Assembly (NCBI GenBank): GCA_031292215.1
Contig: JARLHO010000071.1
Coordinates: forward strand, 1 to 64,000
Length of the DNA: 64,000 nt
Direction of reading: 5' to 3'
Origin: Syntrophobacteraceae bacterium
GTDB taxonomy: Bacteria > Desulfobacterota > Syntrophobacteria > Syntrophobacterales > Syntrophobacteraceae
Shown here: piece after piece, positions 2,779 through 18,930 of the stretch
How the letters are laid out: every line of letters begins with the position of its first letter
How positions within the stretch are numbered: the stretch's first letter is position 1
The notes under the pieces: model-generated
Database searches by the model: none
What the model was told of the DNA's origin: nothing
The model's input: only the letters and a program-made list of their open reading frames with translations
Position numbers and translations under genes: made by a program

Positions 2779-5700
2779 AGTTCCAGAAGGCGAAAAAACC
2801 GAACGGGGCCTCACGCGCCGAGGACTTTTTACAATCGCAGGCCTTGGAGCGCTCTCCTGCGCCCTTGGAACCGACGTCGCCGGGGCGGGGGAAGCAGAGC
2901 TCGATTCGCGGAGCGTCCAGGGAACTGCGGCCACGCGAATGGACCGGGACGTACGGGTAGTACATTCGGTCTGCCTTGCCTGCAACGGCTTTTGCGGATT
3001 AAGGGGGGTGATCCGGGATGAAAAAGTGGTAAATTTTTCGGGAAATCCCTACCATCCATACAACATGAATTTCGAAGCCATCGATTTTAAGACGCCCGTT
3101 CGGGAATCTTTTCGCGTATCGAGTTCGCTATGCGGCAAATGCCTGGACAGCGCAAACCAGGCCTACAATCCCTACCGTGTGCTAAAGCCCTTGAAGCGCA
3201 ACGGACCTCGGGGATCGGGCAGGTTTGAGCCCATTGAATGGGACCATATGGTGCGGGAGGTGTCCGAAGGGGGCAAGCTCTTTTCCCATCTCGGCGAAGA
3301 CAGGATGGTCGAGGGTCTTAGGGACCTTAACTCCGAGGACCCGATAGATCCGGCCGCGCCGGAGCTCGGCCCGAAGCGCAACGGCTTTATTGCTATCACC
3401 GGAAGGCTTCAAAAGGGGCGCAAGGAATTCATCGACCGCTTCGTAAAGCAGGCGATGGGGTCGATAAACCGCATCGGCCACGGGGATATCTGCGGCCTTG
3501 GCTTTCGAATGGGCAACTGGGCTTTTACCGAGCGAAGGGACGTAGAACTTAAGGCCGACCCCTTAAGCGCCGAATACATCCTGATCTTCGGGGCCAACAT
3601 TTACGAAGCCACCCAGCCGGGCGTAAACACCTACGGGGCGCTTGCGGCCAAGCGTCACGCGCAAGGCACGCTCAACTTTTCGATCGTCGATCCCAGGGCC
3701 ACCAGGGCCTCGGCCCACGCGAAGGAATGGGTCCCGGTAAAGCCGGGACAAGACGGGGCGCTCGCCATGGGAATGATCCGCTGGATCATCGAACACAATC
3801 GGTTGAACCTGTCGTTTCTCACCGCGCCAAACCAGGCCGAAGCCGAAAACCGGGGTTACGCCGCCCATTCCAACGCCTCCTTTCTGGTCGTCTGCGACCC
3901 GGCCCACCCACGAGACGGCATGTTCCTGCGCATGAAAGACATCGATCCTTCAGCGTCCGGGAAGGCGGGGGAGGCCATGGTGGTGATTGCAACGGGAAGG
4001 GGCAAAAAACCGGTTTCCGCCCAAAAGGCGCGCGACGCAATACTTGATTGCGACCATGCCGCGACCGGCGAAAACGGCTTTCCCGTAAAGGTAAAAACCG
4101 CCTTTCGCCTTCTCAAGGAAGGGGTCATGGAGCACACCGCGGCCCGGTACGCAGAGTGTTGCGGGATCCCGGAATCGGCCGTCGCGCGTCTTGCCTCCGA
4201 ATTCACCTCGCACGGAACCCGGGCTGCGGTGACCGCCTACCACGGGGCTGGAAACTACGTAAACGGGACCTACGCGGCCTATGCGATAGCTGTTCTAAAC
4301 GGGCTCATCGGCAGCGTGGACATGCGCGGCGGCTACATGAGAGCGGGAGGCGGCTGGGGGTCGCCCAAAAAAGGGGCCTACGATCTTGCCCGATTCCCCG
4401 GGCAGGTAAAGGCCCGAGGCGTTCCCCTCTCGCGGGAAAAATTCGCCTACGAAAAAACCACCGAATACCGGACTAAAAAGGCCAAAACCGGGAGCGGGTA
4501 TCCGGCCGGCCGTCCATGGTTTCCTTTCTCCAAAGGAGGGCTAAGCGTTGAAACCCTGAGTGGGGTTGACGGAAAATATCCCTATCCCTGCAAGATCCTT
4601 TTCACCTATCTTTTTAATCCGGTCTATTCCATTCCCGGAGGCTACCGCTTCAAAGAAACCCTTTGCGACCCGGAAAAAACGCCCCTTCATGTCTCCTTCG
4701 ATGTGACGGTAAACGAATCCAACCTCTATGCGGACTACATCGTCCCGGAGCTCTCCTACCTTGAGGGCCATTACGGATGGCTCACCCCGCACGCTCCAAG
4801 CCTCATGTTCACGGCCATAAGAACGCCGATGATCGAACCTCTTACCGGGAGAACCGGAGACGGTCGCCCGTTTTGCACCGAGACCTTCCTGATAGACGTA
4901 GCGGAACGTCTCGGCCTTGCGGGTTTCGGACATGATGCCATTGCGGATAAAGACGGACATCTTCATCCACTCCACAGGGCCGAAGACTTCTATCTGCGAG
5001 GATTTGCCAACATTGCCCTCGGCGCGGGAGTAGAAGAGGCATCCGCCGAAGAGCTGGCCTTTATCGAAAAAAACTATCCCGTGGCCCGCTATAGAAATAT
5101 CCTTACCGGGCAGGAGTGGAAGAAGGTATGCTACATGCTGGCCAGGGGCGGGCTTTTCAAAAAATACGACGAGATGTTTAAAGGAGATACATTCAAACAC
5201 GGCACGAAAAGATATGCCATCTATAACGAAGACCTCGCGGCAACGACTAATTCCATGACCGGAAAACGTTTTGGCGGAACGCTCCAATATCTTGCGCCCG
5301 CCGATCTGTCGGGAGAAACGCTTGAAGAGGCCGACCACGAGTATCCTTTTTCAATTGTGACCTTCAAACGCTGCCTCCACACGCAGTCGCGCTCCCTCTG
5401 GTTTCGGTATTCGATGGAAGTGATCCCCGAAAATTTCGTGGAAATAAACGAATTGGATGCCGCAGCGCTTGGCCTAAAGGATCGCGACGAGGTGCTTTTG
5501 AGCTCAAGGAGCAACCCGGACGGCATCCGGGGCAGACTTCGCCTAACACGGCTTATTCGGCCGGGATGTCTCGGGGTGTCCTTTCATTTCGGCCATAAGG
5601 AGTTTGGCGGCGGAAGGCTCGAGGTGAAAAACGGTCCTTCGGTATTCCAGGGCGGGGCGGCCCTGTTTAAAGGAGATAGCCTTGTCACCGACCCCGCCTA

Positions 5701-5827
5701 CCGCGCGGGCCTTAACTCCAATGACCTGACCCGGCTGGAAAAACGGCTCGCCAATACGCCCATGGTCGATCTCGTCGGGGGCATTCCGGATTTTAGCAGC
5801 ACACGGGTAAAACTAAAGAAAGTCTAA
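2768..5827 (+). CDS. TtrA-like molybdopterin oxidoreductase, catalytic subunit
   Basis: A 1019-residue protein of the DMSO-reductase superfamily, closest in layout to tetrathionate reductase subunit A. It starts with a Tat signal (TRRGLFTIAGLGALS). A 4Fe-4S site follows (Cys69, Cys72, Cys76, Cys122: CLACNGFCG then CGKC). Cys242 in GHGDICGLGFRMGN is the expected molybdenum ligand. Later segments FGANIYEATQPG, AYHGAGNYVNG and the C-terminal pterin-binding part around SFHFGHKEFGGG fit the family. Its ATG overlaps the stop of the TtrB-like gene, so the two are translationally coupled. No TtrC or NrfD-type membrane anchor is found beside them, so the quinone link must lie elsewhere or the pair uses another donor. 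Substrate assignment (tetrathionate or another sulfur or arsenic oxyanion) is inference. Confidence 0.85.
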   Translation: MKNRVPEGEKTERGLTRRGLFTIAGLGALSCALGTDVAGAGEAELDSRSVQGTAATRMDRDVRVVHSVCLACNGFCGLRGVIRDEKVVNFSGNPYHPYNMNFEAIDFKTPVRESFRVSSSLCGKCLDSANQAYNPYRVLKPLKRNGPRGSGRFEPIEWDHMVREVSEGGKLFSHLGEDRMVEGLRDLNSEDPIDPAAPELGPKRNGFIAITGRLQKGRKEFIDRFVKQAMGSINRIGHGDICGLGFRMGNWAFTERRDVELKADPLSAEYILIFGANIYEATQPGVNTYGALAAKRHAQGTLNFSIVDPRATRASAHAKEWVPVKPGQDGALAMGMIRWIIEHNRLNLSFLTAPNQAEAENRGYAAHSNASFLVVCDPAHPRDGMFLRMKDIDPSASGKAGEAMVVIATGRGKKPVSAQKARDAILDCDHAATGENGFPVKVKTAFRLLKEGVMEHTAARYAECCGIPESAVARLASEFTSHGTRAAVTAYHGAGNYVNGTYAAYAIAVLNGLIGSVDMRGGYMRAGGGWGSPKKGAYDLARFPGQVKARGVPLSREKFAYEKTTEYRTKKAKTGSGYPAGRPWFPFSKGGLSVETLSGVDGKYPYPCKILFTYLFNPVYSIPGGYRFKETLCDPEKTPLHVSFDVTVNESNLYADYIVPELSYLEGHYGWLTPHAPSLMFTAIRTPMIEPLTGRTGDGRPFCTETFLIDVAERLGLAGFGHDAIADKDGHLHPLHRAEDFYLRGFANIALGAGVEEASAEELAFIEKNYPVARYRNILTGQEWKKVCYMLARGGLFKKYDEMFKGDTFKHGTKRYAIYNEDLAATTNSMTGKRFGGTLQYLAPADLSGETLEEADHEYPFSIVTFKRCLHTQSRSLWFRYSMEVIPENFVEINELDAAALGLKDRDEVLLSSRSNPDGIRGRLRLTRLIRPGCLGVSFHFGHKEFGGGRLEVKNGPSVFQGGAALFKGDSLVTDPAYRAGLNSNDLTRLEKRLANTPMVDLVGGIPDFSSTRVKLKKV

Positions 5828-5963
5828 ATTCAGGCGCTCTTCCCCCTTCTATCAACTCAGGGTATAGTGCGTTTGCGGGGATGATCCGATCGGGTAAATC
5901 CGGTTCGCCCGCAAAGCGTTGCAGCAAGACTCCAAGGATGTTGGCGCCCAAGGAGTACTGAGG

Positions 5964-7625
5964 GTGGATGCGACCACAATTGAAGATGTCCTCGACTACG
6001 TCGGCTCCTATTATGAGAAGAAGCGAAAACCGTCCTCGAAGCTGATCCGGCTGGACGATGAGTCCGCGTACTGCGTCCTTTGCGCCGCCGCCTTCCTTGG
6101 GCGCTTCGCAAAAATGGATGGCTTTCAGGCCCAGCGGTTGTTTGTCCGCATGCGGACATCAGGTGTTCGAACCGAAAATGAGCTGCGCTCGTGGATCGAT
6201 GAGACCTTTTGTCGTGTCAATACCAGGCGGTGGGACTCAAGCCGGAAACGGGCTCAAGAATTTCTCGAGGCCGAAATAAAGGTGTTTGCGCCTTCTGTGG
6301 AGTTTTTCGGTCCGGTCGAAGACCGCCCTTCGGCTCGAACCGATGCGCTGCAGTGCCCGGGGGTAATTTTTGGCAAAGGCTGCCCGCCCGAGTATCCGCC
6401 CCTCCTTGCCGTATTCAATTCTCGAAAGCCAAGGCGGGTTTGCCCCGATTCAAGCTGGCTGGATGCGATGCGCTGTTTCCTGCGCGGTATGGACCGAGGG
6501 GGAATTGGCCTGGCCGGCAGCACGGGGACGCTCACCTACGATCTTGCCTCAGCTCTTGCTCTGCGCCTGAATTTTCTTCAGCTCCTGATCGCCCCCTTTC
6601 CCCTTTTCGGGGCGGATCGTCAATTGTTTACAATCTTCGAAGAGACCGCCAAAACCCTTCCAACGATTTCCTGCATGGTCGATGGCGCCCCATGTCGCGG
6701 AAAACTGCCCATGAGGTGTCGCGACCGGCTTCTTGCCGCTATGTCCGATTTTCATCTCGTACTGGAAATAAGATCGGGCGGAAATCTCCTGGCGGTCCTG
6801 GAGCAGATCCAGTCAAAATCGCCCCGGCCCCACTTTGTTTTAACACCCGACACTCCGCGGACTTCCAGTGGCGGAAATCTTACCCTTTTGAAAAAATTTC
6901 CGGAGCACGCCGTGGGATTTAAAGCATCGAGGCCGCAGGAACCGGTTCAGGCCGAGGCGGCCGGCGCCGCCAACTCTTTTAGCTCTTCAAAGAAAGCGTC
7001 GCGGGAATGTAGTCTTTGGCGCGGCGTAAAACTTGCCCGGGACACTCACCTGTTTCACTACACACGGGGCTGCGTCGGTCCCTGGCCCGGTGAGACGTAC
7101 CGGCAATATCTTCTCGATCTGCTCGACGCGGGCCTCCTCTCGACTGGCGGTTCGGCGCTCGCAAGTCTTGCCCGGATCGCGCGCGAAGGCCTTCTGCGAG
7201 CCTCCTGCCACATGATCAGGGGAAAGATTCCGGTCGTTTCCTGGAGTTCCGTTCCACCCCACAAGCTTTTTCTCATGCGGACATGGCGCCGACCCTTTGC
7301 TCGCTGGAATGTCGAGCCTTACGGCGTCGCCTTGCGGCGCGATATACTGCGCCCGCTGGGGGCAAAGCCCGCCATATACGGAAGCGAAGAGGTCTATTCG
7401 AAGCTTCCCGACTCGGAGAAATACCGCTTTCAGTTAAGCCGTCCCCGGCCTGGCGCCGCCTGGAGACAGGAACGCGAATGGCGCATCGCAAACGATCTGC
7501 TGCTTACAGAAATAAAACCCGACCAAGGCTTTTTTTTCGTGCAAACGGCAAGGGAAGCCGAAAGGCTCTATGGATGCACGGACCCGGGGCTGCCGGTGAT
7601 TGCAATGAGTGAGCAAGACTTCTGA
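5964..7625 (+). CDS. Uncharacterised protein with possible DprA/SLOG-like and DUF2971-like parts
   Basis: A protein of 553 residues when started at GTG 5964, which has AAGGAG eight bases upstream; a TTG at 5919 gives 15 more residues but lacks a good site. The first 110 residues are unrecognised. Residues about 150-290 resemble a Rossmann-like DprA/SLOG module: YPPLLAVFNSRKPRR, then GIGLAGSTGTLTYDL at 181, then RDRLLAAMSDFHLVLEIRSG from 253, a layout like the nucleotide-binding part of DprA. After a linker of low complexity, residues 365-553 contain HYTRGC, SWSSVPPH, FARWNVEPYGVAL and WRQEREWRI, arranged like DUF2971-type proteins (an HYT start, a central FARW block and an EREWR end). No transmembrane segments are seen. 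These assignments are pattern-based; the gene stands alone between convergent and upstream genes. Confidence 0.5.
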   Translation: MDATTIEDVLDYVGSYYEKKRKPSSKLIRLDDESAYCVLCAAAFLGRFAKMDGFQAQRLFVRMRTSGVRTENELRSWIDETFCRVNTRRWDSSRKRAQEFLEAEIKVFAPSVEFFGPVEDRPSARTDALQCPGVIFGKGCPPEYPPLLAVFNSRKPRRVCPDSSWLDAMRCFLRGMDRGGIGLAGSTGTLTYDLASALALRLNFLQLLIAPFPLFGADRQLFTIFEETAKTLPTISCMVDGAPCRGKLPMRCRDRLLAAMSDFHLVLEIRSGGNLLAVLEQIQSKSPRPHFVLTPDTPRTSSGGNLTLLKKFPEHAVGFKASRPQEPVQAEAAGAANSFSSSKKASRECSLWRGVKLARDTHLFHYTRGCVGPWPGETYRQYLLDLLDAGLLSTGGSALASLARIAREGLLRASCHMIRGKIPVVSWSSVPPHKLFLMRTWRRPFARWNVEPYGVALRRDILRPLGAKPAIYGSEEVYSKLPDSEKYRFQLSRPRPGAAWRQEREWRIANDLLLTEIKPDQGFFFVQTAREAERLYGCTDPGLPVIAMSEQDF

Positions 7626-7740
7626 CAAAATTTATTTCGTTCGCCCCGCGGCATGATCGGGAGGGGATCGAATCCACGGTGGCGATGCCCAAAAAACGCA
7701 ACGAGCAAAGGCTCTCGCCCACAAGCCTGCGCTCAAACAC

Positions 7741-8382
7741 CTAGCGCTTGGGCTCGGAAACCATTTTGCGTACATCTTCGAGGGTCATTCCCGTATCGAT
7801 GTCCTGGCGCGCCACGAGTTCGTAGAGCGCATCCACCAGCAGCGGCGACCATCGACCAGGGGGCGACGAATTTTCCGGAGCCGCAGGCTTTAGTGTGGAT
7901 TCCTTCGCTTGCAGGGACGGCAACGGTTCCGGCGATTTGGCTTTTCTGACACGCTTTTCTTTCTTGGGGGGCTCCTTGGCAGCAATCTCAAGCCGGGGCT
8001 CGTTTACGGCAACCAACTCCGGCGCCGGCGCCTTAATGACGCATTCTTCCGTCTTATCCTCAACTGTCATAGTGGAGTGGGCGTTGGAGACCCTTTGCCC
8101 GTCCTCGACCGCTACTGGCTCGGTCAAGGGCTCTTCGCAATCAGGCTCTATTTGGCGGTTTCCAAAAACGCCTTTGGATTGGAGCACATGAACGACGAGA
8201 TATCTCGCCCTTCCGACCTCCCGGGTAATAGACTCGATACTTTGGCCGCCGGTGTAGAGCGCTACGATTCGCTGCTCGGTGTCTTCGTTCAATGCGCGCG
8301 ACGCCTGAGGTTGGTTGTTACGGCATCCGGGTTGCGAAGACTCGTTTCTGGGCTTTCGATAGTTCTGTACTGATTGTCTCAT
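7741..8382 (-). CDS. Helix-turn-helix protein of unknown function
   Basis: A 213-residue protein. Residues 30-70 (ALNEDTEQRIVALYTGGQSI, then SITREVGRARYLVVHVL) look like a resolvase- or Hin-type helix-turn-helix. The middle is a charged, proline- and lysine-rich linker, and the last 45 residues (RWSPLLVDALYELVARQDID onwards) form a short conserved-looking tail. It may be a DNA-binding regulator; a nucleoid-associated role is equally open. A likely promoter lies 50-90 bases upstream. It converges on the 5964-7625 gene, with 115 bases between them that hold nothing clear. Confidence 0.6.
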   Translation of the reverse strand: MRQSVQNYRKPRNESSQPGCRNNQPQASRALNEDTEQRIVALYTGGQSIESITREVGRARYLVVHVLQSKGVFGNRQIEPDCEEPLTEPVAVEDGQRVSNAHSTMTVEDKTEECVIKAPAPELVAVNEPRLEIAAKEPPKKEKRVRKAKSPEPLPSLQAKESTLKPAAPENSSPPGRWSPLLVDALYELVARQDIDTGMTLEDVRKMVSEPKR

Positions 8383-11561: not shown

Positions 11562-12167
11562 TCACAGAATCTGTTCTATCCCGATGGCAATCAGTATGAG
11601 ACCCGCGACGATTGTCGCCTTTTGGGCTATATTCATCCGGATAAAGAATGCGGAAATGTAGTTTCCCGCCCACAGGGCGACAAAACTTATGACGGCGGAT
11701 AAAAATCCGACCAGCAAGGCATCAACGCCCAGAATCCCGGCGCTCAAGCCTCCCCCGATATTGTTAAGCGACAGCGCTATCCCGAGCAGAGTCGCTTCCT
11801 TAAAATCTATATGCTTCGATTGATCCTTGTCGGCAATTTCGGGAGAAAGCAGTATATCGCCGATATTTTGGGTGCGCTTGGAACGATTTTCGCGAAGTTT
11901 TTTAATATAGGGCTCCAGTATCATCCACGAACCGATGGCCGTAAGAAGCACCATGGCTATCAGGGAAGACACTCTCGTTCCCAGGGAACCCGATACCGCC
12001 TTGCCCGAAAAAGCAGCCAGGTAGGAAATTACAAATGTAATTACCGAAATCCAAAGATTTACCGGGGTGCTTATCGATATCCCACGTATGCTATAGGCGA
12101 TTCTCGCCCCAATGTTGTCAAAGTTATTGGTTAAAGCTATAAAGAATGCAAGTACAATGTGATCCAT
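11562..12167 (-). CDS. YtaF/MntP-type membrane protein (putative Mn exporter family)
   Basis: A 201-residue protein with six predicted transmembrane helices arranged as two three-helix halves. Each half carries the family acidic/Asn signature: ALTNNFDNIGARIAYSI in the first and GIALSLNNIGGGLSAGI in the second. This matches the MntP/YtaF group of small membrane proteins, of which MntP exports manganese; YtaF is known from Bacillus sporulation, though nothing here suggests sporulation. A cytoplasmic loop rich in charged residues joins the halves. ATG 12167 has AAGGA eight bases upstream and is preferred to the GTG just before it. The 213 bases between it and the gene at 10155 hold no clear feature. 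Confidence 0.8.
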   Translation of the reverse strand: MDHIVLAFFIALTNNFDNIGARIAYSIRGISISTPVNLWISVITFVISYLAAFSGKAVSGSLGTRVSSLIAMVLLTAIGSWMILEPYIKKLRENRSKRTQNIGDILLSPEIADKDQSKHIDFKEATLLGIALSLNNIGGGLSAGILGVDALLVGFLSAVISFVALWAGNYISAFFIRMNIAQKATIVAGLILIAIGIEQIL

Positions 12168-12593
12168 CACGCCAATCCTTATATCAGCCTTTTATAATTC
12201 CACGGAAACGACTTTGCTACCGGCCAAAAGCCGCGCGCCAAACTTTTCCGCGGCGCCGGCGATTCTACCCGCGAGCTATCGGCTCGATTGCCCGATTTTC
12301 AAACCCATTATAAGGGTGTAATTGCCGATTACATCGTTTTTTGTTCATTACCTTTCCACACATTCTCGCACGCGATTTAGAAAAACTATTTATTTTGCCT
12401 CAATACCAGCCCATCTTGCTGCGCCACAACTTCCGTTACTTGCTCCGCAGTTGTGAGGTAATGGAATGTTTAGTTGACAGAGAGCAAAAGCACGCCTACT
12501 TAATTAATCTGCGTTACGAAATTGCGACTTATATGACGGTTTTGTGACAATTGAGCGTCAGTTCTATTTTGTGCCGCTATGAGGAGGTGTTGT
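12168..12593. other. Intergenic region with a promoter for the repeat-protein gene
   Basis: This stretch of 426 bases is less GC-rich than the surroundings. It holds a good sigma70-like promoter (listed separately) and a GAGGAGGT ribosome-binding site at its right end. A 68-codon TTG-started frame at 12341-12547 has no ribosome-binding site and no recognisable protein features, so it is not called. Confidence 0.6.
12474..12502 (+). promoter_or_regulatory. Predicted sigma70-type promoter
   Basis: TTGACA at 12474-12479 is a perfect -35 hexamer, followed after 17 bases by TACTTA at 12497-12502 within an AT-rich patch. It points to the repeat-protein gene about 90 bases downstream, leaving a short 5' leader. 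Confidence 0.5.
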
Positions 12594-13460
12594 ATGTCTA
12601 TAATAGACATCGAGGATGACCCTTGCGCCGCAGGGGATAAGCCTGCTGCAAAAGGGGTAAAAAAAAGGAAGAAAACGGCAGAGGATACCCGAACAGACTC
12701 TGGGAAGGAGAATACCATGGCATTTGAAGAGGGAAAAAGCATCTGCGAGCCGGAGACCACCCCGGAGACCACCGACCGTGAAAGCATGCAGGGCGCCTCT
12801 GGAGCCCTTAGGTCCGCCGAAGGGTTTTCCACGCAATTCATTGGCTCGGCTCGAAACGCTATTGGCGACACTCTGAAGGCAACGGGCGCGGTTGCCATGG
12901 ATGCCGTGAACGTGGTGCAAAACATGGTCAAAGGAACGGTTGGCGCAGCCGAGGATGTGAGCCTGAGCCTTGTTGGAAGCACCGTTAACGTGGCCAAAGG
13001 CCTTGTCGGCGGGGTCTCCGAGGTTGGCGGGGAGAGCTTTACCATTGCTTGCGACGCTGTTTGCGGCGCCGCAAGAGGTGTCTCGCAAGTCGGAGGCGAG
13101 GTGCTCACGATCGCTCAAAGGGCCGCTCTTGGGACCGTCAGGGGGGTTTCGGAAGTCGGCGGCGAACTGCTCACCACCTCCCGAAGAGCCATGTCGGCAA
13201 CGGTGCTCGGAGTCTCAGACCTTGGAGCGGAGGTTGCCTCGGTGGCCCAAAGGGCGATTCACGGCGGGATCAACGCGACCAGAGACATCGCCGCCAACGC
13301 CACGGCAACCTCAAAGGACGCCATTGGAGGGGCCGTAGACACTGCGGGTTCCCTTGCAATGGGAGTTGTCGGAGCCGCGAAAAATGTTTTCGTAGGTACT
13401 GTTGGAGGCGTAAAGGATGTCCTTAACGCAGCGCTGCCGAGACCGGCTGAACATCCTTAG
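12594..13460 (+). CDS. Protein with tandem 22-residue amphipathic repeats
   Basis: A 288-residue protein not recognised as a named family. It starts at ATG 12594, with GAGGAGGT five bases upstream; an ATG at 12579 would place that site inside the gene. Residues 1-75 are charged and disordered-looking (Lys/Glu/Thr-rich). From about residue 85 the chain is built of Gly/Ala/Val/Ser repeats, the clearest being 22-residue units starting GVSEVGGE, GVSQVGGE, GVSEVGGE and GVSDLGAE. The pattern suggests amphipathic helices like those of LEA-like, phasin or apolipoprotein-like membrane- or surface-coating proteins. There is no signal peptide or single hydrophobic membrane segment. An intrinsic terminator follows, yet it lies next to the P-type ATPase cluster with the same orientation. 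Confidence 0.65.
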   Translation: MSIIDIEDDPCAAGDKPAAKGVKKRKKTAEDTRTDSGKENTMAFEEGKSICEPETTPETTDRESMQGASGALRSAEGFSTQFIGSARNAIGDTLKATGAVAMDAVNVVQNMVKGTVGAAEDVSLSLVGSTVNVAKGLVGGVSEVGGESFTIACDAVCGAARGVSQVGGEVLTIAQRAALGTVRGVSEVGGELLTTSRRAMSATVLGVSDLGAEVASVAQRAIHGGINATRDIAANATATSKDAIGGAVDTAGSLAMGVVGAAKNVFVGTVGGVKDVLNAALPRPAEHP

Positions 13461-13550: not shown

Positions 13551-13591
13551 GAACCGGTGATTGCAACCTCACACTCACCGGTTCATTTTTT
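13551..13591 (+). terminator. Intrinsic terminator after the repeat-protein gene
   Basis: The arms gaaccggtga (13551-13560) and tcaccggttc (13575-13584) are perfect complements around a 14-base loop, followed by a T-rich tract. It separates the repeat-protein gene from the ATPase gene, so the ATPase may need its own promoter or read-through. Confidence 0.75.
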
Positions 13592-13608
13592 CAAAGCGGG
13601 AGAAAGCG

Positions 13609-16600
13609 ATGGTACGGCCAGTCCACACCGCTCTCAAGGGAAGAGCCAGGTTTAAGATCGATGGGCTGTGCGGCTCAAAAGCGCTGCGGGACCATATTGA
13701 AGCCGGGCTCTGGAGGCACAAGGCAATTAGTGGAGTCTCTTCGAGCACAACGACCGGCAACGTTTTAGTGACCTTTAATTCGGGCAACGACTTCCGGTCC
13801 ATTGCCGAAGTCATCGAATCATTGGTTCGGGATTACCATGATCTGGAAATTGCCTCCAAGGCCATCCGGGAGGATAAGGGCGCCCGCGCCCCGGACATGC
13901 CGTCCACGGCGGTTGCGGTCAAATCCCCCGGGGCGCTGGGCAAGGCGCGAAGCGCATTATTTGGCCAGGCGCAACACCAGGAACAAGTTCTGGAACCGTG
14001 GCACACGCTCCATGCCGGCGCAGCTCTTGAGGCTTTTAAGAGTCCGGCGGCGTGCGGGCTGTGCAATACCGAAGCACTCGAGCGCCTTGATCTCTATGGA
14101 CCGAACGCTCTGCCCCAAACCTCCGCCAGGTCTGGGTGGGGCATCTTCGCCGATCAGTTTAAATCCCTTCCCGTTGTCCTGCTCGGAGTTGCCGCGGGGA
14201 TCTCGGTTTTAACGGGCGGGCTGGTCGATGCGGTAGTCATTTTAGGGGTCGTGGCGATAAACGGCGCAATTGGTTTTAAGACGGAGAGCGAGGCCGAAAA
14301 GACCATCAACTCCCTTAAAGACCTCGTAAAGCCTACCGCCGATGTTCTGAGGGACGGTTTGGTTAAGACCGTTTCCGCGGACCTGGTCGTACCCGGAGAC
14401 ATCCTCGTGCTGCGCCCCGGCGCCTACGTCGCAGCCGATGCCAGGCTGCTCGACGCAAATCACTTAAGTGTCGACGAATCCGCTCTTACCGGCGAGAGCA
14501 TGCCGGTTGCAAAGACCATCGACCCTCTTTCGCGCCCGGACATCCCGTTAGCCGATAGACTCAACATGGTCTACATGGGGACCCTGGTAACGGGTGGGCA
14601 GGGATTTGCCGTGGCGATTGCCACGGGCGGTTATACCGAGGTGGGGAAGCTCCAGGCCCTGGTAGGGGAGGCCTCCTCGCCCGATACGCCCATGGAAAAG
14701 CAGCTAAATAGACTCGGAGACCAGCTCGTGCTCATCTCGGGCGTTGCCTGCGGCCTGGTTTTCGGAATCGGCCTTCTTCGCGGATACGGCTTTTTAACGA
14801 TGCTAAAGACATCGATAGCGCTCGCCGTGGCCGCGGTACCCGAAGGGCTGCCCGCAGTCGCAACGACCACGCTTGCCCTGGGTCTTAGAAACATGAAAAA
14901 ACACAACGTGCTGATTCGCCACCTCAACGCCGTTGAAACCCTGGGGTGCATCCAGACGATATGCTTCGACAAAACGGGCACGATCACTCAAAACAGGATG
15001 TCTGTCGTACGCCTCTTCTCGGGAATGCAGGCGGTGAACGTCTCCAACGGCAGGTTCTTCTCGGGTGAATCCACAGTCGATCCACTCGACTCCAAAGAGA
15101 TAACGAACCTCATCGAAAAATCCGTTCTGTGCAATGAAACGGAAATCGTGGGGGAACCGGGCCAGTACGTTTTGCACGGCTCACCTACGGAGATATCCCT
15201 TGTAAATCTCGCTTTCCAGGCAGGGATCGATGCGCACCGCCTAAAAGAGGAGCACCCGCTTCTCAAGATGAACTATCGCTCGGAGAGCCGCCTTTTCATG
15301 GGATCTCTTCATACATTCGAAGAGGAGGGGCGCAGCCGTTTCCTAATAGCCATGAAGGGGAGCCCGGTCGAGGTCCTGGCGATGTGCGACTCCCATATCC
15401 TGGGCGGCGAAGAACTTATTCTCACCGAAGACGACCGCTCCCTTATCGAGCGCGAAAACGAGCTGATGTCCGCCGATGCTCTAAGAGTCCTGGGGGTTGC
15501 CTACACCATTTCGGACACCGAAGATCGATTCGGAAAAACGAACGGTTTCGTATGGCTGGGTCTTATCGGCATGGCCGATCCCGTGCGCCCGGGGGTCTCG
15601 GGGCTCATGCGCGAGTTTCACCACGCAGGGATCGACACCGTTATGATCACCGGTGACCAGAGTCTTACGGCATACGCCATTGGCAAGGAACTCGATCTCG
15701 CTTGCGGAAAACAAATCGAGATCCTCGATTCCTCAGAGATCACCCAGATGGATTCCGAGGCGCTCACCGCGATTTCGGACAAGGTCCACGTTTTTGCAAG
15801 GGTTAGTCCCTCCTTCAAGCTCGATATCGTTCGCGCCCTTCAGAGCAAAGGCAGGGTCATCGCGATGACCGGAGACGGAATAAACGATGGGCCGGCTCTA
15901 AAAGCCGCAGATATCGGTATCGCCATGGGGTTGGGGGGAACCGATATTGCCCGTGAGGTAGCCGATGTCGTCCTGGAAGGAGATAACCTCGAGACGGTGA
16001 TCATAGCCGTAAGAGACGGCCGCACCATCTACAACAATATCCGCAAAGCCCTGCGATTCCTTCTCGCCACAAACTTCAGCGAAATCATGGTGATGTTTGT
16101 AACGGTTGCTGCCGGGCTGCCTGCGCCCCTTGGCGCCATGCAGCTTCTGTGGATCAATCTCATCTCGGATATCTTCCCCGGCCTCGCCCTGGCCATGGAA
16201 GCGCCCGAACCCGATGTCCTCGACCGGCCGCCCCGCCCCCCGGAGGAACCCATTGTAAAGTCCTCCGATTTCAAAAGGCTGACATTTGAAGCCGGCACTC
16301 TCACCGCGGGCGCCATGGGGGCCTACGCCTACGGGATCGCCCGCTACGGGCTGGGGGCCCGGGCCGGAACGCTTACCTTCCAGAGCCTCACAATGGGGCA
16401 GCTCCTCCATTCCATAAGCTGTAGATCCGAAAAGCACACCATCTTCAGTGGGGAAAAGCTCCCGCCCAACCGGTACCTCACGATGGCCCTGGGCGGCTCG
16501 TTTGCTCTGCAGATGCTCACCATTTTCGTGCCCGGACTACGAAGCCTCTTGGGCCTTGCCCCGATCGGTCTGCTGGACGGCGCGGTCATAGCGGGAACCG

Positions 16601-16710
16601 CCGCGCTGCCGCTTCTGATAAACGAGGCGACCAAGAGTTTGACCGGGGACCAACCGTCGGTGAAGTGCGATGTGCCTCAGGTGACAGACGTAGCAGTAGA
16701 ACTCAGATAA
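13609..16710 (+). CDS. P2-type (Ca2+-ATPase-like) cation pump with HMA-like N-terminal domain
   Basis: A 1033-residue P-type ATPase. Residues 1-80 look like a ferredoxin-fold HMA-type domain but lack the CxxC metal site. Then come a cation-ATPase N-terminal segment, TGES (about residue 294, actuator), VPEGLPAV (membrane helix 4 signature of P2 pumps), the phosphorylation motif CFDKTGTITQ (Asp454) and GDGINDGPALK (about 755, hinge). The PEGLP form places it with Ca2+/Mn2+- or monovalent-type pumps rather than heavy-metal P1B pumps. ATG 13609 follows a GGGAGAAA site; a TTG at 13561 sits within the terminator. The MetK-like gene follows after 13 bases and is probably co-transcribed. Ion specificity is unknown. 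Confidence 0.9.
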   Translation: MVRPVHTALKGRARFKIDGLCGSKALRDHIEAGLWRHKAISGVSSSTTTGNVLVTFNSGNDFRSIAEVIESLVRDYHDLEIASKAIREDKGARAPDMPSTAVAVKSPGALGKARSALFGQAQHQEQVLEPWHTLHAGAALEAFKSPAACGLCNTEALERLDLYGPNALPQTSARSGWGIFADQFKSLPVVLLGVAAGISVLTGGLVDAVVILGVVAINGAIGFKTESEAEKTINSLKDLVKPTADVLRDGLVKTVSADLVVPGDILVLRPGAYVAADARLLDANHLSVDESALTGESMPVAKTIDPLSRPDIPLADRLNMVYMGTLVTGGQGFAVAIATGGYTEVGKLQALVGEASSPDTPMEKQLNRLGDQLVLISGVACGLVFGIGLLRGYGFLTMLKTSIALAVAAVPEGLPAVATTTLALGLRNMKKHNVLIRHLNAVETLGCIQTICFDKTGTITQNRMSVVRLFSGMQAVNVSNGRFFSGESTVDPLDSKEITNLIEKSVLCNETEIVGEPGQYVLHGSPTEISLVNLAFQAGIDAHRLKEEHPLLKMNYRSESRLFMGSLHTFEEEGRSRFLIAMKGSPVEVLAMCDSHILGGEELILTEDDRSLIERENELMSADALRVLGVAYTISDTEDRFGKTNGFVWLGLIGMADPVRPGVSGLMREFHHAGIDTVMITGDQSLTAYAIGKELDLACGKQIEILDSSEITQMDSEALTAISDKVHVFARVSPSFKLDIVRALQSKGRVIAMTGDGINDGPALKAADIGIAMGLGGTDIAREVADVVLEGDNLETVIIAVRDGRTIYNNIRKALRFLLATNFSEIMVMFVTVAAGLPAPLGAMQLLWINLISDIFPGLALAMEAPEPDVLDRPPRPPEEPIVKSSDFKRLTFEAGTLTAGAMGAYAYGIARYGLGARAGTLTFQSLTMGQLLHSISCRSEKHTIFSGEKLPPNRYLTMALGGSFALQMLTIFVPGLRSLLGLAPIGLLDGAVIAGTAALPLLINEATKSLTGDQPSVKCDVPQVTDVAVELR

Positions 16711-16723
16711 AGGATAACTCCCG

Positions 16724-17917
16724 ATGAAAACGAATTTCATCTTCGCCTCCGAATCGGCAACGGGCGGACATCCCGACAAACTCTGCGACCAGATAAGCGA
16801 TGCGATCGTCGACCGCTTTCTCGACCAGGATCCCCTGGCGAAGGTGCGGGCGGAATGCGCTGTTTCCACAGCGGTTCTGTTTCTGGCCGCACGGTTTGCA
16901 TCCAGTGCGAAGGTGGATGTGGCCCGCGTTGCCCGCAAGGTCATCAGGAAGGCGGGCTATGAGCATGAAGATTTCAACAGTACCACGTGCAGCATCCTTA
17001 CCAGCTTAAAGGAGCTGCCCCGAAGCGATGCGCCGGCCGCCGACGAAAGGGATCTATCAGACGAAGAGATCGACCGAATACATGTAAAGCAGCAGGGAAC
17101 GTTTTTCGGCTACGCGTGCGGCCAGACGCCTTCACTCATGCCCCTGCCCATAACGCTTGCCCATAAGCTCGCCATGCAAATCGATTCCGTAAGGGTGCAA
17201 AAGCTTATTCCCTATCTGGCCCCCGACGCTAAGACCCAGGTGGGAATCGAGTATCGGGATCGAAAGCCTGCCGGGATCTACAGCCTGGGGATCGCGGTGA
17301 CCCAGCTTGCCGGACCCCTCCAGTCTCAGCGCCAAATTGCCGAAGATATTCGGCAGGCGGTGATCGAGCCCGTTTTTAAAGATGAGCCCGTACGACCCGA
17401 TAAGGAAACGAAGATCTTTATAAATCCCGAGGGAGTCACCATGCTGGGGGGGCCTTCGGTACACTCGGGCCTTACGGGAAGGAAAAACGCCGTCGACACC
17501 TACGGCGAGTACTCGCGCTACAGCGGCTCGGCATTGAGCGGAAAAGATCCGATGAGGATCGATCGGGTCGGGGTCTATGCGGCCCGATATGCGGCCAAAA
17601 ACGTTGTGGCCGCCCATCTCGCCGATGAATGCGAAGTCCAACTGACCTACTCCATCGGATCTTCTCATCCGGTGAGCGTCCAGGTAGACACCTTCGATAC
17701 CGGTAAGATCTCCGAAACGGAAATAGCGGACTTAATCAAGAAGCACTTCGATTTCCGGCTGGCGGCCATCGTCAGGGAGTTCGACTTAAGGAGGCTGCCC
17801 GGCAGGATGAAAGGAGACTTCTACAGAAAACTCGCCGTTTATGGACACGTCGGCCGAACGGACCTCGATCTCCCCTGGGAAAAGACAGACAAGGCGGCGA
17901 TTCTCGAAGCCAGGTGA
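16724..17917 (+). CDS. Divergent S-adenosylmethionine synthetase (MetK) homologue
   Basis: A protein of 397 residues that is full length for the MetK family, which makes S-adenosylmethionine from methionine and ATP. Nucleotide and triphosphate residues are kept: GHPDK, CDQISDA, DAKTQV, GLTGRK and SGKDP. Residues around methionine and adenine in the E. coli enzyme are altered by my hand alignment: Glu55 to Arg, Gln98 to Leu, Asp118 to Gln (the loop GAGDQG reads HVKQQG), Phe230 to Thr and Asp238 to His. It therefore may not be the housekeeping enzyme, and may use another substrate or act in regulation. It follows the P-type ATPase gene by 13 bases, which suggests a linked function. Without structure or assay the reaction is open. 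Confidence 0.85.
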   Translation: MKTNFIFASESATGGHPDKLCDQISDAIVDRFLDQDPLAKVRAECAVSTAVLFLAARFASSAKVDVARVARKVIRKAGYEHEDFNSTTCSILTSLKELPRSDAPAADERDLSDEEIDRIHVKQQGTFFGYACGQTPSLMPLPITLAHKLAMQIDSVRVQKLIPYLAPDAKTQVGIEYRDRKPAGIYSLGIAVTQLAGPLQSQRQIAEDIRQAVIEPVFKDEPVRPDKETKIFINPEGVTMLGGPSVHSGLTGRKNAVDTYGEYSRYSGSALSGKDPMRIDRVGVYAARYAAKNVVAAHLADECEVQLTYSIGSSHPVSVQVDTFDTGKISETEIADLIKKHFDFRLAAIVREFDLRRLPGRMKGDFYRKLAVYGHVGRTDLDLPWEKTDKAAILEAR

Positions 17918-18096
17918 GGGGAGCTTAAGCGTAATTTTTTTAGCTCGCCCTGCTCCATAAAAGAGACTGTATCATAACTGGCCGCCCCGGTAGAGGCAAA
18001 GGACAGAAAGCGCGGGGAGCCGTGCCCCCGCACCCCCACGGGTCCCGCGACAGGGACGCATCCCAACAGCTCAGTTCATACTATAGGAGGCCCATC

Positions 18097-18336
18097 ATGG
18101 CTTTATTAGAAAATGGTTTTCTGAAATTGGGCGGCTCCATTGCGCTGGGAGTGGGGGCGATTGTCCTTGCTCCGATAATAATTCCCGCAGTCTCATCGGC
18201 CGTAAGGCCTCTTGTAAAAGCCGGGATAAAATCTGCCATGGTGCTCTACCAGAAGGCGACAGAACTTGCGTCCGAAGCGTCCGAAACCCTCGGGGACCTG
18301 GTGGAGGAAGTAAAAGCCGAGGTCGTATCGGAGTAG
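18097..18336 (+). CDS. DUF5132-type small membrane-associated protein
   Basis: A 79-residue protein starting MALLENGFLKLGG, with a GGAGG site six bases before ATG 18097. A long hydrophobic segment (residues 10-32, GVGAIVLAPIIIPAV) is followed by an amphipathic helical part and an acidic tail ending EVKAEVVSE. This matches my memory of DUF5132 proteins, small membrane proteins often found near P-type ATPases with HMA-like domains, as here. No biochemical role is known to me. It lies 179 bases after the MetK-like gene, in the same orientation. Confidence 0.7.
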   Translation: MALLENGFLKLGGSIALGVGAIVLAPIIIPAVSSAVRPLVKAGIKSAMVLYQKATELASEASETLGDLVEEVKAEVVSE

Positions 18337-18621
18337 TTTCCGATGGGCCGCATCAGATGCCCCTCTGGAGTGCGAGGCTACAAAGGCTTAAAAAAACGGC
18401 ACTTCAAGCGGCGCCAGGCAGCACCGGCCGCAAACAAACGGCGGGAGGCTCTCCTGCTCGGAATTGCTCGATCCTATGACACGACCCGTTACTTTATCGC
18501 CCAATGAGCGTTGACAACCGTTATCTTTGCGTTCATGCTTCGCCATGATCAAAAGTTGGAACCCGCCTGTAACTCGGGCGGAGGAACACGGCGGTATGCG
18601 TCTTACAAATCAGGAGAAAAA

Positions 18622-18930
18622 ATGGACTTAATGGTGCAAAGCGGCATTCCAAGAGGAAAAATCGGCGTGAGGCTCATGTATACGCTTCTATTCGTGGTAA
18701 TCCTCAGCCTGATGAATTTCATGATTCAACTGATAGCCCTGGTGCAATTTGTGATATTACTGCTCACCAAAAGCTACAGCGAACCGCTGCGTTCCTTTTC
18801 CAACAAGGCCGCGGCCTATGTATATCGGCTCGTACGCTACATTACGCTAAACGATAACACCAAACCGTTTCCTTTCATGGATTTTCCGGCCGAGATGGAA
18901 AGACCCCAAAATTTTGCCAGGTTCGAATAA
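18622..18930 (+). CDS. DUF4389 membrane protein
   Basis: A 102-residue protein with one long or two short transmembrane helices (residues about 15-48, MYTLLFVVILSLMNFMIQ then ALVQFVILLLT). The C-terminal half has the DUF4389 pattern: FSNKAAAYVYRLVRYITLN followed by KPFPFMDFP. ATG 18622 has AGGAG five bases upstream; an earlier TTG at 18511 has no such site. Function is unknown. It completes the same-strand run with the repeat protein, ATPase, MetK-like and DUF5132 genes, though the 285-base gap before it may hold a separate promoter (a TTGACA occurs at 18511 without a good -10). Confidence 0.75.
   Translation: MDLMVQSGIPRGKIGVRLMYTLLFVVILSLMNFMIQLIALVQFVILLLTKSYSEPLRSFSNKAAAYVYRLVRYITLNDNTKPFPFMDFPAEMERPQNFARFE

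Follow-up and report, generated by a model that had tools for sequence, protein, structure and literature searches.

A SAM-synthetase homologue with a rewritten methionine pocket is encoded beside a P2A-type cation pump in bacteria

Results

The window analysed in this report is the whole stretch of 64,000 nucleotides of a Syntrophobacteraceae bacterium (GCA_031292215.1, contig JARLHO010000071.1, positions 1 to 64,000). The following genes in it are considered.

11562-12170, minus strand: MntP/YtaF-family membrane protein, on the strand opposite to the pump; possibly related cation export
12579-13460, plus strand: Ala/Gly/Val-rich repetitive protein (c3), 293 aa; no Pfam or NCBIfam match
13561-16710, plus strand: P2A-type cation ATPase, 1049 aa as listed, start not fixed; ends 13 nt before MetK2
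16724-17917, plus strand: MetK2, 397 aa; MAT fold, with the methionine and adenosine contacts rewritten and the triphosphate/metal site intact
18022-18336, plus strand: DUF5132 protein, ORF as listed, start not fixed
18511-18930, plus strand: DUF4389 protein, downstream; its membership in the unit is uncertain

The 397 codons of the gene that we call MetK2 contain no internal stop, and the N-terminal, central and C-terminal SAM-synthetase domains of Pfam (PF00438, PF02772 and PF02773) are all matched. The product scores 362.4 bits against the NCBIfam metK equivalog model TIGR01034, above the cut-off of 309.4, so automatic annotation would name the gene metK. The structure predicted by AlphaFold2 with 50 alignment rows (mean pLDDT 86.6, pTM 0.89) has solved MATs as its best matches, with Z 47.7 over 379 residues at 2.2 A for 5h9u (VIA-align). 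Residues ~241-270, an active-site stretch, are predicted with low confidence (pLDDT about 50-57), and for this reason the pocket geometry is not argued from the model. MetK2 is about 41% identical to the canonical MetK copies within the same genus.

Alignment to E. coli MetK, whose numbering is used throughout, gives E55R, Q98L, D118Q, F230T and D238H, with HVKQQG replacing the GAGDQG loop; H14, D16, E42, D163, K165, R244, K245, K265, D271 and the GHPD motif are kept. The original prediction had named these five changes and the altered loop, and had considered the ATP/triphosphate residues to be retained; each change is confirmed by the alignment, and all the listed phosphate and metal ligands are present. 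The dN/dS values for nine sequence pairs are 0.05-0.13, as under purifying selection, and these values together with the residue conservation reject a pseudogene or a decaying copy. Riboswitch control of the unit was rejected as well, since an Rfam search of the window gave no match above the gathering score; so was an anti-phage defence system, as PADLOC gave 0 families for 5 proteins.

A single scan of 84,980 species genomes yielded 61 loci: 54 MetK2 variants, 6 canonical MetKs and 1 ambiguous fragment (L063). The latter is a broken fragment with the best segment at 32%; it is outside the variant counts and inside the 55-locus table of neighbour clusters. The 54 loci span Thermodesulfobacteriota, Nitrospirota, Gamma- and Betaproteobacteria and one planctomycete-labelled MAG. 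For the residue counts, 69 matches were reduced to 61 variant rows, the addition of L113 gave 62 (including the rows of relatives), and thinning at 90% identity left 56.

Neither E55 nor D238 is kept in any of the 56 sequences: position 55 is occupied by Arg in 40 and by His in 16, and position 238 by His in all of them. K269 is replaced by Arg throughout (56/56), I102 is kept in none, and Q98 in two; positions 55 and 98 covary, Arg occurring with Leu in 33 and His with His in 19 of the 62 rows. T227 is also kept in none (Glu in 29 and Asp in 18, i.e., acidic in 47/56), R229 is kept in one, and position 117 is Lys or Arg in 48/56. Residue 230 is still Phe in 17/56 and otherwise highly variable, and D118 is kept in 10/56; thus, of the changes proposed for the window gene, those at E55, Q98 and D238 extend to the clade, while those at F230 and D118 do so only in part. 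The ligands of triphosphate, metal and K+ (D16, E42, R244, K245, K265 and D271) are kept in 56/56. D163 is kept in 49 and is Glu in the other 7 (acidic in 56/56), H14 is kept in 54 and is Asn in two, and K165 is kept in 44 and lost in 12. E55, D118, F230 and D238 do not vary among the 38 canonical rows. The alignment with MAT families, which had been suggested as a check, accordingly shows that the altered residues define a clade and are not the oddity of one gene.

Examined for the substrate residues of a MAT, MetK2 falls short at the methionine-binding E55, Q98, D238 and K269 and at the adenine-stacking F230. Read from the alignment, it is a MAT-fold homologue lacking the MAT substrate residues; the phosphate and metal side of the site is preserved and the methionine side is not, two acids having given way to basic residues.

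Several individual sequences can be mentioned separately. The natural members with Asn at the catalytic His14 are L079 and L113 (genomes G003 and G001). Lys165 is missing from 13 of the 62 rows, mostly with Glu in its place, in a gammaproteobacterial branch. Three Helicobacteraceae MAGs (L059, L060 and L061) have an unusual MetK in which His14 is Gln and both Gln98 and Lys269 are Arg, with E55 and D238 kept.

A second, canonical metK, which the original prediction proposed to search for, is present in the genome of the window (G000:C61:63904-65040); it has all canonical residues and lies beside the S-adenosylhomocysteine hydrolase gene (ahcY), so MetK2 is not the only MetK of this genome. Among 18 other MetK2 carriers checked, a full canonical metK is present in 14; it is cut by the contig end in G067 and is a fragment in G072, and none was found in G071 and G074. 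In the MetK tree, obtained by a quick method with long branches flagged and without X_L096 (translated in a wrong frame), one branch with SH-aLRT 100 parts the MetK2 variants from the 38 canonical rows. Four genomes of the window's genus (L095, L097, L099 and L114) have a long-branch MetK with canonical active-site residues, some of them with another canonical copy. Plasmid carriage of MetK2 was considered and rejected: 130 plasmid records matched, all below 60% identity (the best 47.6% among 20 listed), and these matches look like ordinary metK or are unannotated.

The pump gene is directly upstream of MetK2 on the same strand in 51 of the 54 loci; the remaining three (L038, L055 and L058) begin at most about 312 nt from a contig end. 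At the canonical metK loci an upstream pump was found in 0/6. The gap between the two genes has a median of 13 nt and does not exceed 100 nt in 43/51, with a 4-nt overlap in 13; gaps of 230-534 nt, the latter being the longest, occur in L025, L030, L034, L036 and L039. The claim that the window gene directly follows a cation pump gene is therefore correct (the pump ORF ends at 16710) and applies clade-wide. The distance matrices of the pump and MetK2 for 45 loci correlate with r=0.90, and 0/1000 permutations were as high; such a correlation would follow from shared descent alone too.

Two whole-genome surveys bear on the same point. The window's family (26 genomes) contains 18 orthologous pumps (at least 54% identity) and 18 MetK2; 17 are adjacent, and one pair (G022) is split at contig ends, all other pumps being at most 39% identical. 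The order of Thiohalocapsa halophila (119 genomes) has 6 orthologous pumps (at least 47% identity); five of them are neighbours of the 5 MetK2 of these genomes, and the remaining one (G172) is cut by the contig end. All other pumps there are at most 41% identical. An intact pump of the MetK2-paired subfamily without MetK2 was found in neither survey (26 + 119 genomes). One MetK2 remnant has no pump (G005:C130, L121:5587-5874); it comprises the last quarter of the protein (residues 299-394) in a scrambled context, and we read it as a decayed relic. Judging from both surveys, gain and loss seem to affect the pump and MetK2 jointly, and we consider their pairing to be strongly supported by the genome comparisons.

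A reverse-strand ORF near the relic looks HMA-like by eye. In G025 (L116:7691-10684), a second HMA-bearing P-type ATPase, only 37% identical, directly follows MetK2, which gives the order pump-MetK2-pump. A fusion of the pump and MetK2 in L031 was rejected, since the 1268-aa ORF does not share the reading frame of the pump, whose true ORF (4969-8004) is followed by a separate metK2.

The best curated match of the window pump is the PMR1-type Ca2+ ATPase model TIGR01522, with 618.1 bits, below the cut-off of 798.3; the nearest solved sequence is SPCA1 (ATP2C1, calcium-transporting ATPase type 2C). The motifs TGES, DKTGT, PEGLP, TNxSE and NLxSD are conserved among 45 aligned pump sequences; PEGLP, TNxSE and NLxSD contain the SERCA-like site residues of TM4-TM6. 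An N-terminal HMA_2-like stretch of the window pump scores 24.4, under the Pfam cut-off of 30.

As to the other neighbours, the MntP/YtaF-family protein scores 139.4 bits, just under the YtaF cut-off of 149.6. Relatives of c3 are found upstream of the pump at other loci, in Nitrospirota and others (14/55 loci in the cluster table). At the 35 long MetK2 loci (at least 12 kb), small HMA_2-like proteins occur in 20, DUF5132 in 14 and c3 in 11 cases; at other loci, sub-lineages repeatedly have ion transporters such as Na/Ca exchangers and CorA near MetK2. No paper on DUF5132 was found in the literature searched.

Discussion

SAM synthetases are among the most conserved and essential enzymes. Their substrate-binding residues are well preserved even among divergent archaeal enzymes, according to PMC1282579. 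PMC3853416 and PMC6850014 describe the methionine amino group as bound by D238 and E55, its carboxylate by Q98 and K269, and the ribose hydroxyls by D163 and D238; adenine is stacked by F230, H14 is the proposed catalytic acid, and human R264 (E. coli R244) holds the gamma phosphate and also salt-bridges across the dimer. Human S247 (position 227) contacts adenine N1 (PMC6850014).

By alignment, the basic residues R/H55, K/R117, H238 and R269 replace the acids holding the methionine amino group. The original suggestion that the protein may not make SAM from methionine gains support from the clade-wide loss of the methionine-binding residues, and we believe that MetK2 probably does not do so; standard adenosine recognition is probably lost as well. 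The individual changes differ in value. Human Q113A (Q98) retains 75.6% of SAM formation (PMC6850014), so the Q98 change alone is weak evidence. K269R is weak evidence too, being a conservative change that is also found in the three Helicobacteraceae rows keeping E55 and D238. PMC6850014 also reports that human MAT alpha-1 with D258G, a Lys289 change or R249W (E. coli D238, K269 and R229, respectively) has lowered SAM and unaffected phosphatase.

We propose that MetK2 is a neofunctionalised MAT paralogue, which probably no longer makes SAM from methionine and now serves a P2A Ca2+/Mn2+-type pump as its dedicated partner, a proposal on which our own confidence is evenly divided. MetK2 would keep the tripolyphosphate/NTP-Mg chemistry, with methionine recognition gone. 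What is kept would correspond to the tripolyphosphatase partial reaction of MAT, an activity that persists in the human enzyme when several of the same residues are mutated (PMC6850014). The pocket would bind a triphosphate (NTP, PPPi or longer polyphosphate) together with an anionic, not zwitterionic, ligand, and the bound triphosphate would be hydrolysed or only sensed. The ligand state would be coupled to the adjacent pump, MetK2 being a regulator or a handler of a phosphate-bound cation; the protein would be cytosolic and dedicated to this pump. The cation-transport neighbours (Na/Ca exchanger, CorA and MntP family) are counted for the partnership with the pump. The adjacency of the two genes may reflect co-regulation and not physical contact.

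It is tempting to go further, and we do so tentatively, with somewhat less than even confidence. On this view, evolution would have turned the SAM-synthetase fold into an obligate partner that uses (or senses) NTP or tripolyphosphate and serves a bacterial SPCA-like Ca2+/Mn2+ pump. Transport would then depend on two components, pump and partner, and what was once the methionine pocket would take an anionic phosphate-type ligand, possibly with an altered base specificity (acidic residue 227).

The main rival to our proposal is a nucleosidyl-transferase with a new acceptor: an anionic nucleophile would attack the C5' carbon of an NTP, be it ATP or another such as GTP, and the adenosylated product would be used or exported with the pump. 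Since D163 is always acidic and H14 is kept in 54/56, 5'-transfer to another acceptor is conceivable; the six PPPi/metal ligands are invariant, the basic residues sit around the methionine amino-group site, and Glu or Asp at 227 could suit another base. However, two sequences have Asn for H14 and 12 lack K165, which makes it uncertain that adenosyl transfer is the conserved activity of MetK2; F230, the adenine stacker, is highly variable, and the clusters examined contain zero recurrent biosynthetic partner genes, being composed mainly of transport and metal-associated genes. We regard this rival as doubtful.

MetK2 could also be catalytically inert and serve the pump as a scaffold or regulatory subunit, its active site being preserved merely for fold or dimer stability. 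This would agree with the tight gene pairing, the divergence matched to that of the pump, the natural H14N and K165E members and the salt bridge that human R264 (R244) makes across the dimer (PMC6850014); nevertheless, the joint invariance of D16, E42, R244, K245, K265 and D271 exceeds what dimer stability should require, and we consider such a role improbable. A second methionine-using SAM synthetase with specialised regulation or kinetics is unlikely to about the same degree: the same fold, the passed metK cut-off and the intact triphosphate site speak for it, but E55 and D238 are lost in every sequence and Q98 in all but two, a canonical metK accompanies it in its own genome and, as a full copy, in 14/18 other carriers, and the gene context is the pump and not the methionine cycle.

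The proposed pump partner can be compared with known systems. With canonical MAT/MetK it shares the three-domain fold, the length, the triphosphate/Mg2+/K+ ligands and the GHPD motif; it differs in that the methionine amino and carboxylate contacts, the adenine stacker and the 117-120 loop are replaced in most of the clade, and in being an extra copy beside canonical metK that is paired with a pump. The tripolyphosphatase partial reaction of MAT is similar insofar as the PPPi-binding residues are kept and the equivalent human mutants lose SAM formation and keep phosphatase (PMC6850014), whereas the changes in MetK2 are natural and clade-fixed and its hydrolysis is putative. The window pump resembles the P2A Ca2+/Mn2+ ATPases PMR1/SPCA1 and LMCA1 in its best matches and P2A motifs, and is distinguished from them by its score below the TIGR01522 cut-off, the N-terminal HMA_2-like stretch and the pairing with MetK2.

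Two further comparisons are by description. Methylococcus capsulatus Bath has two MetK genes (MCA0450/MCA0139) with divergent phylogenies (PMC517821), and MetK2 loci occur in two Methylococcaceae (L035 and L051); the accessible part of PMC517821 gives neither altered residues nor a link to a pump. In the mycobacterial PacL/CtpC system, small membrane-associated proteins act with a metal-pumping P-ATPase, which is reminiscent of the DUF5132 and HMA_2 genes here; the pump is of P1B type there and P2A here, and a MetK-like protein is unmentioned in the accessible description of PacL/CtpC. We found no description of the MetK2 clade or of its link to the pump in the literature searched, most subscription journals being outside the search.

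Conclusions

Considering the rewritten methionine pocket and the pairing with the pump, the database label of an ordinary SAM synthetase is probably wrong, and the metK name assigned by the NCBIfam equivalog model is probably a misannotation. Because MetK2 genes pass this model, they would enter metabolic reconstructions as SAM synthetases, and the clade thus flags a systematic misannotation of metK. If our proposal is true, there is a MAT-family function that makes no SAM. A clade in which only the triphosphate part of the site survives and whose gene accompanies a single ion pump would illustrate how an ancient transferase was repurposed; as natural separation-of-function mutants, its members would be of use in work on MAT catalysis, and they may indicate that a bacterial P2A pump has an accessory component so far unrecognised.
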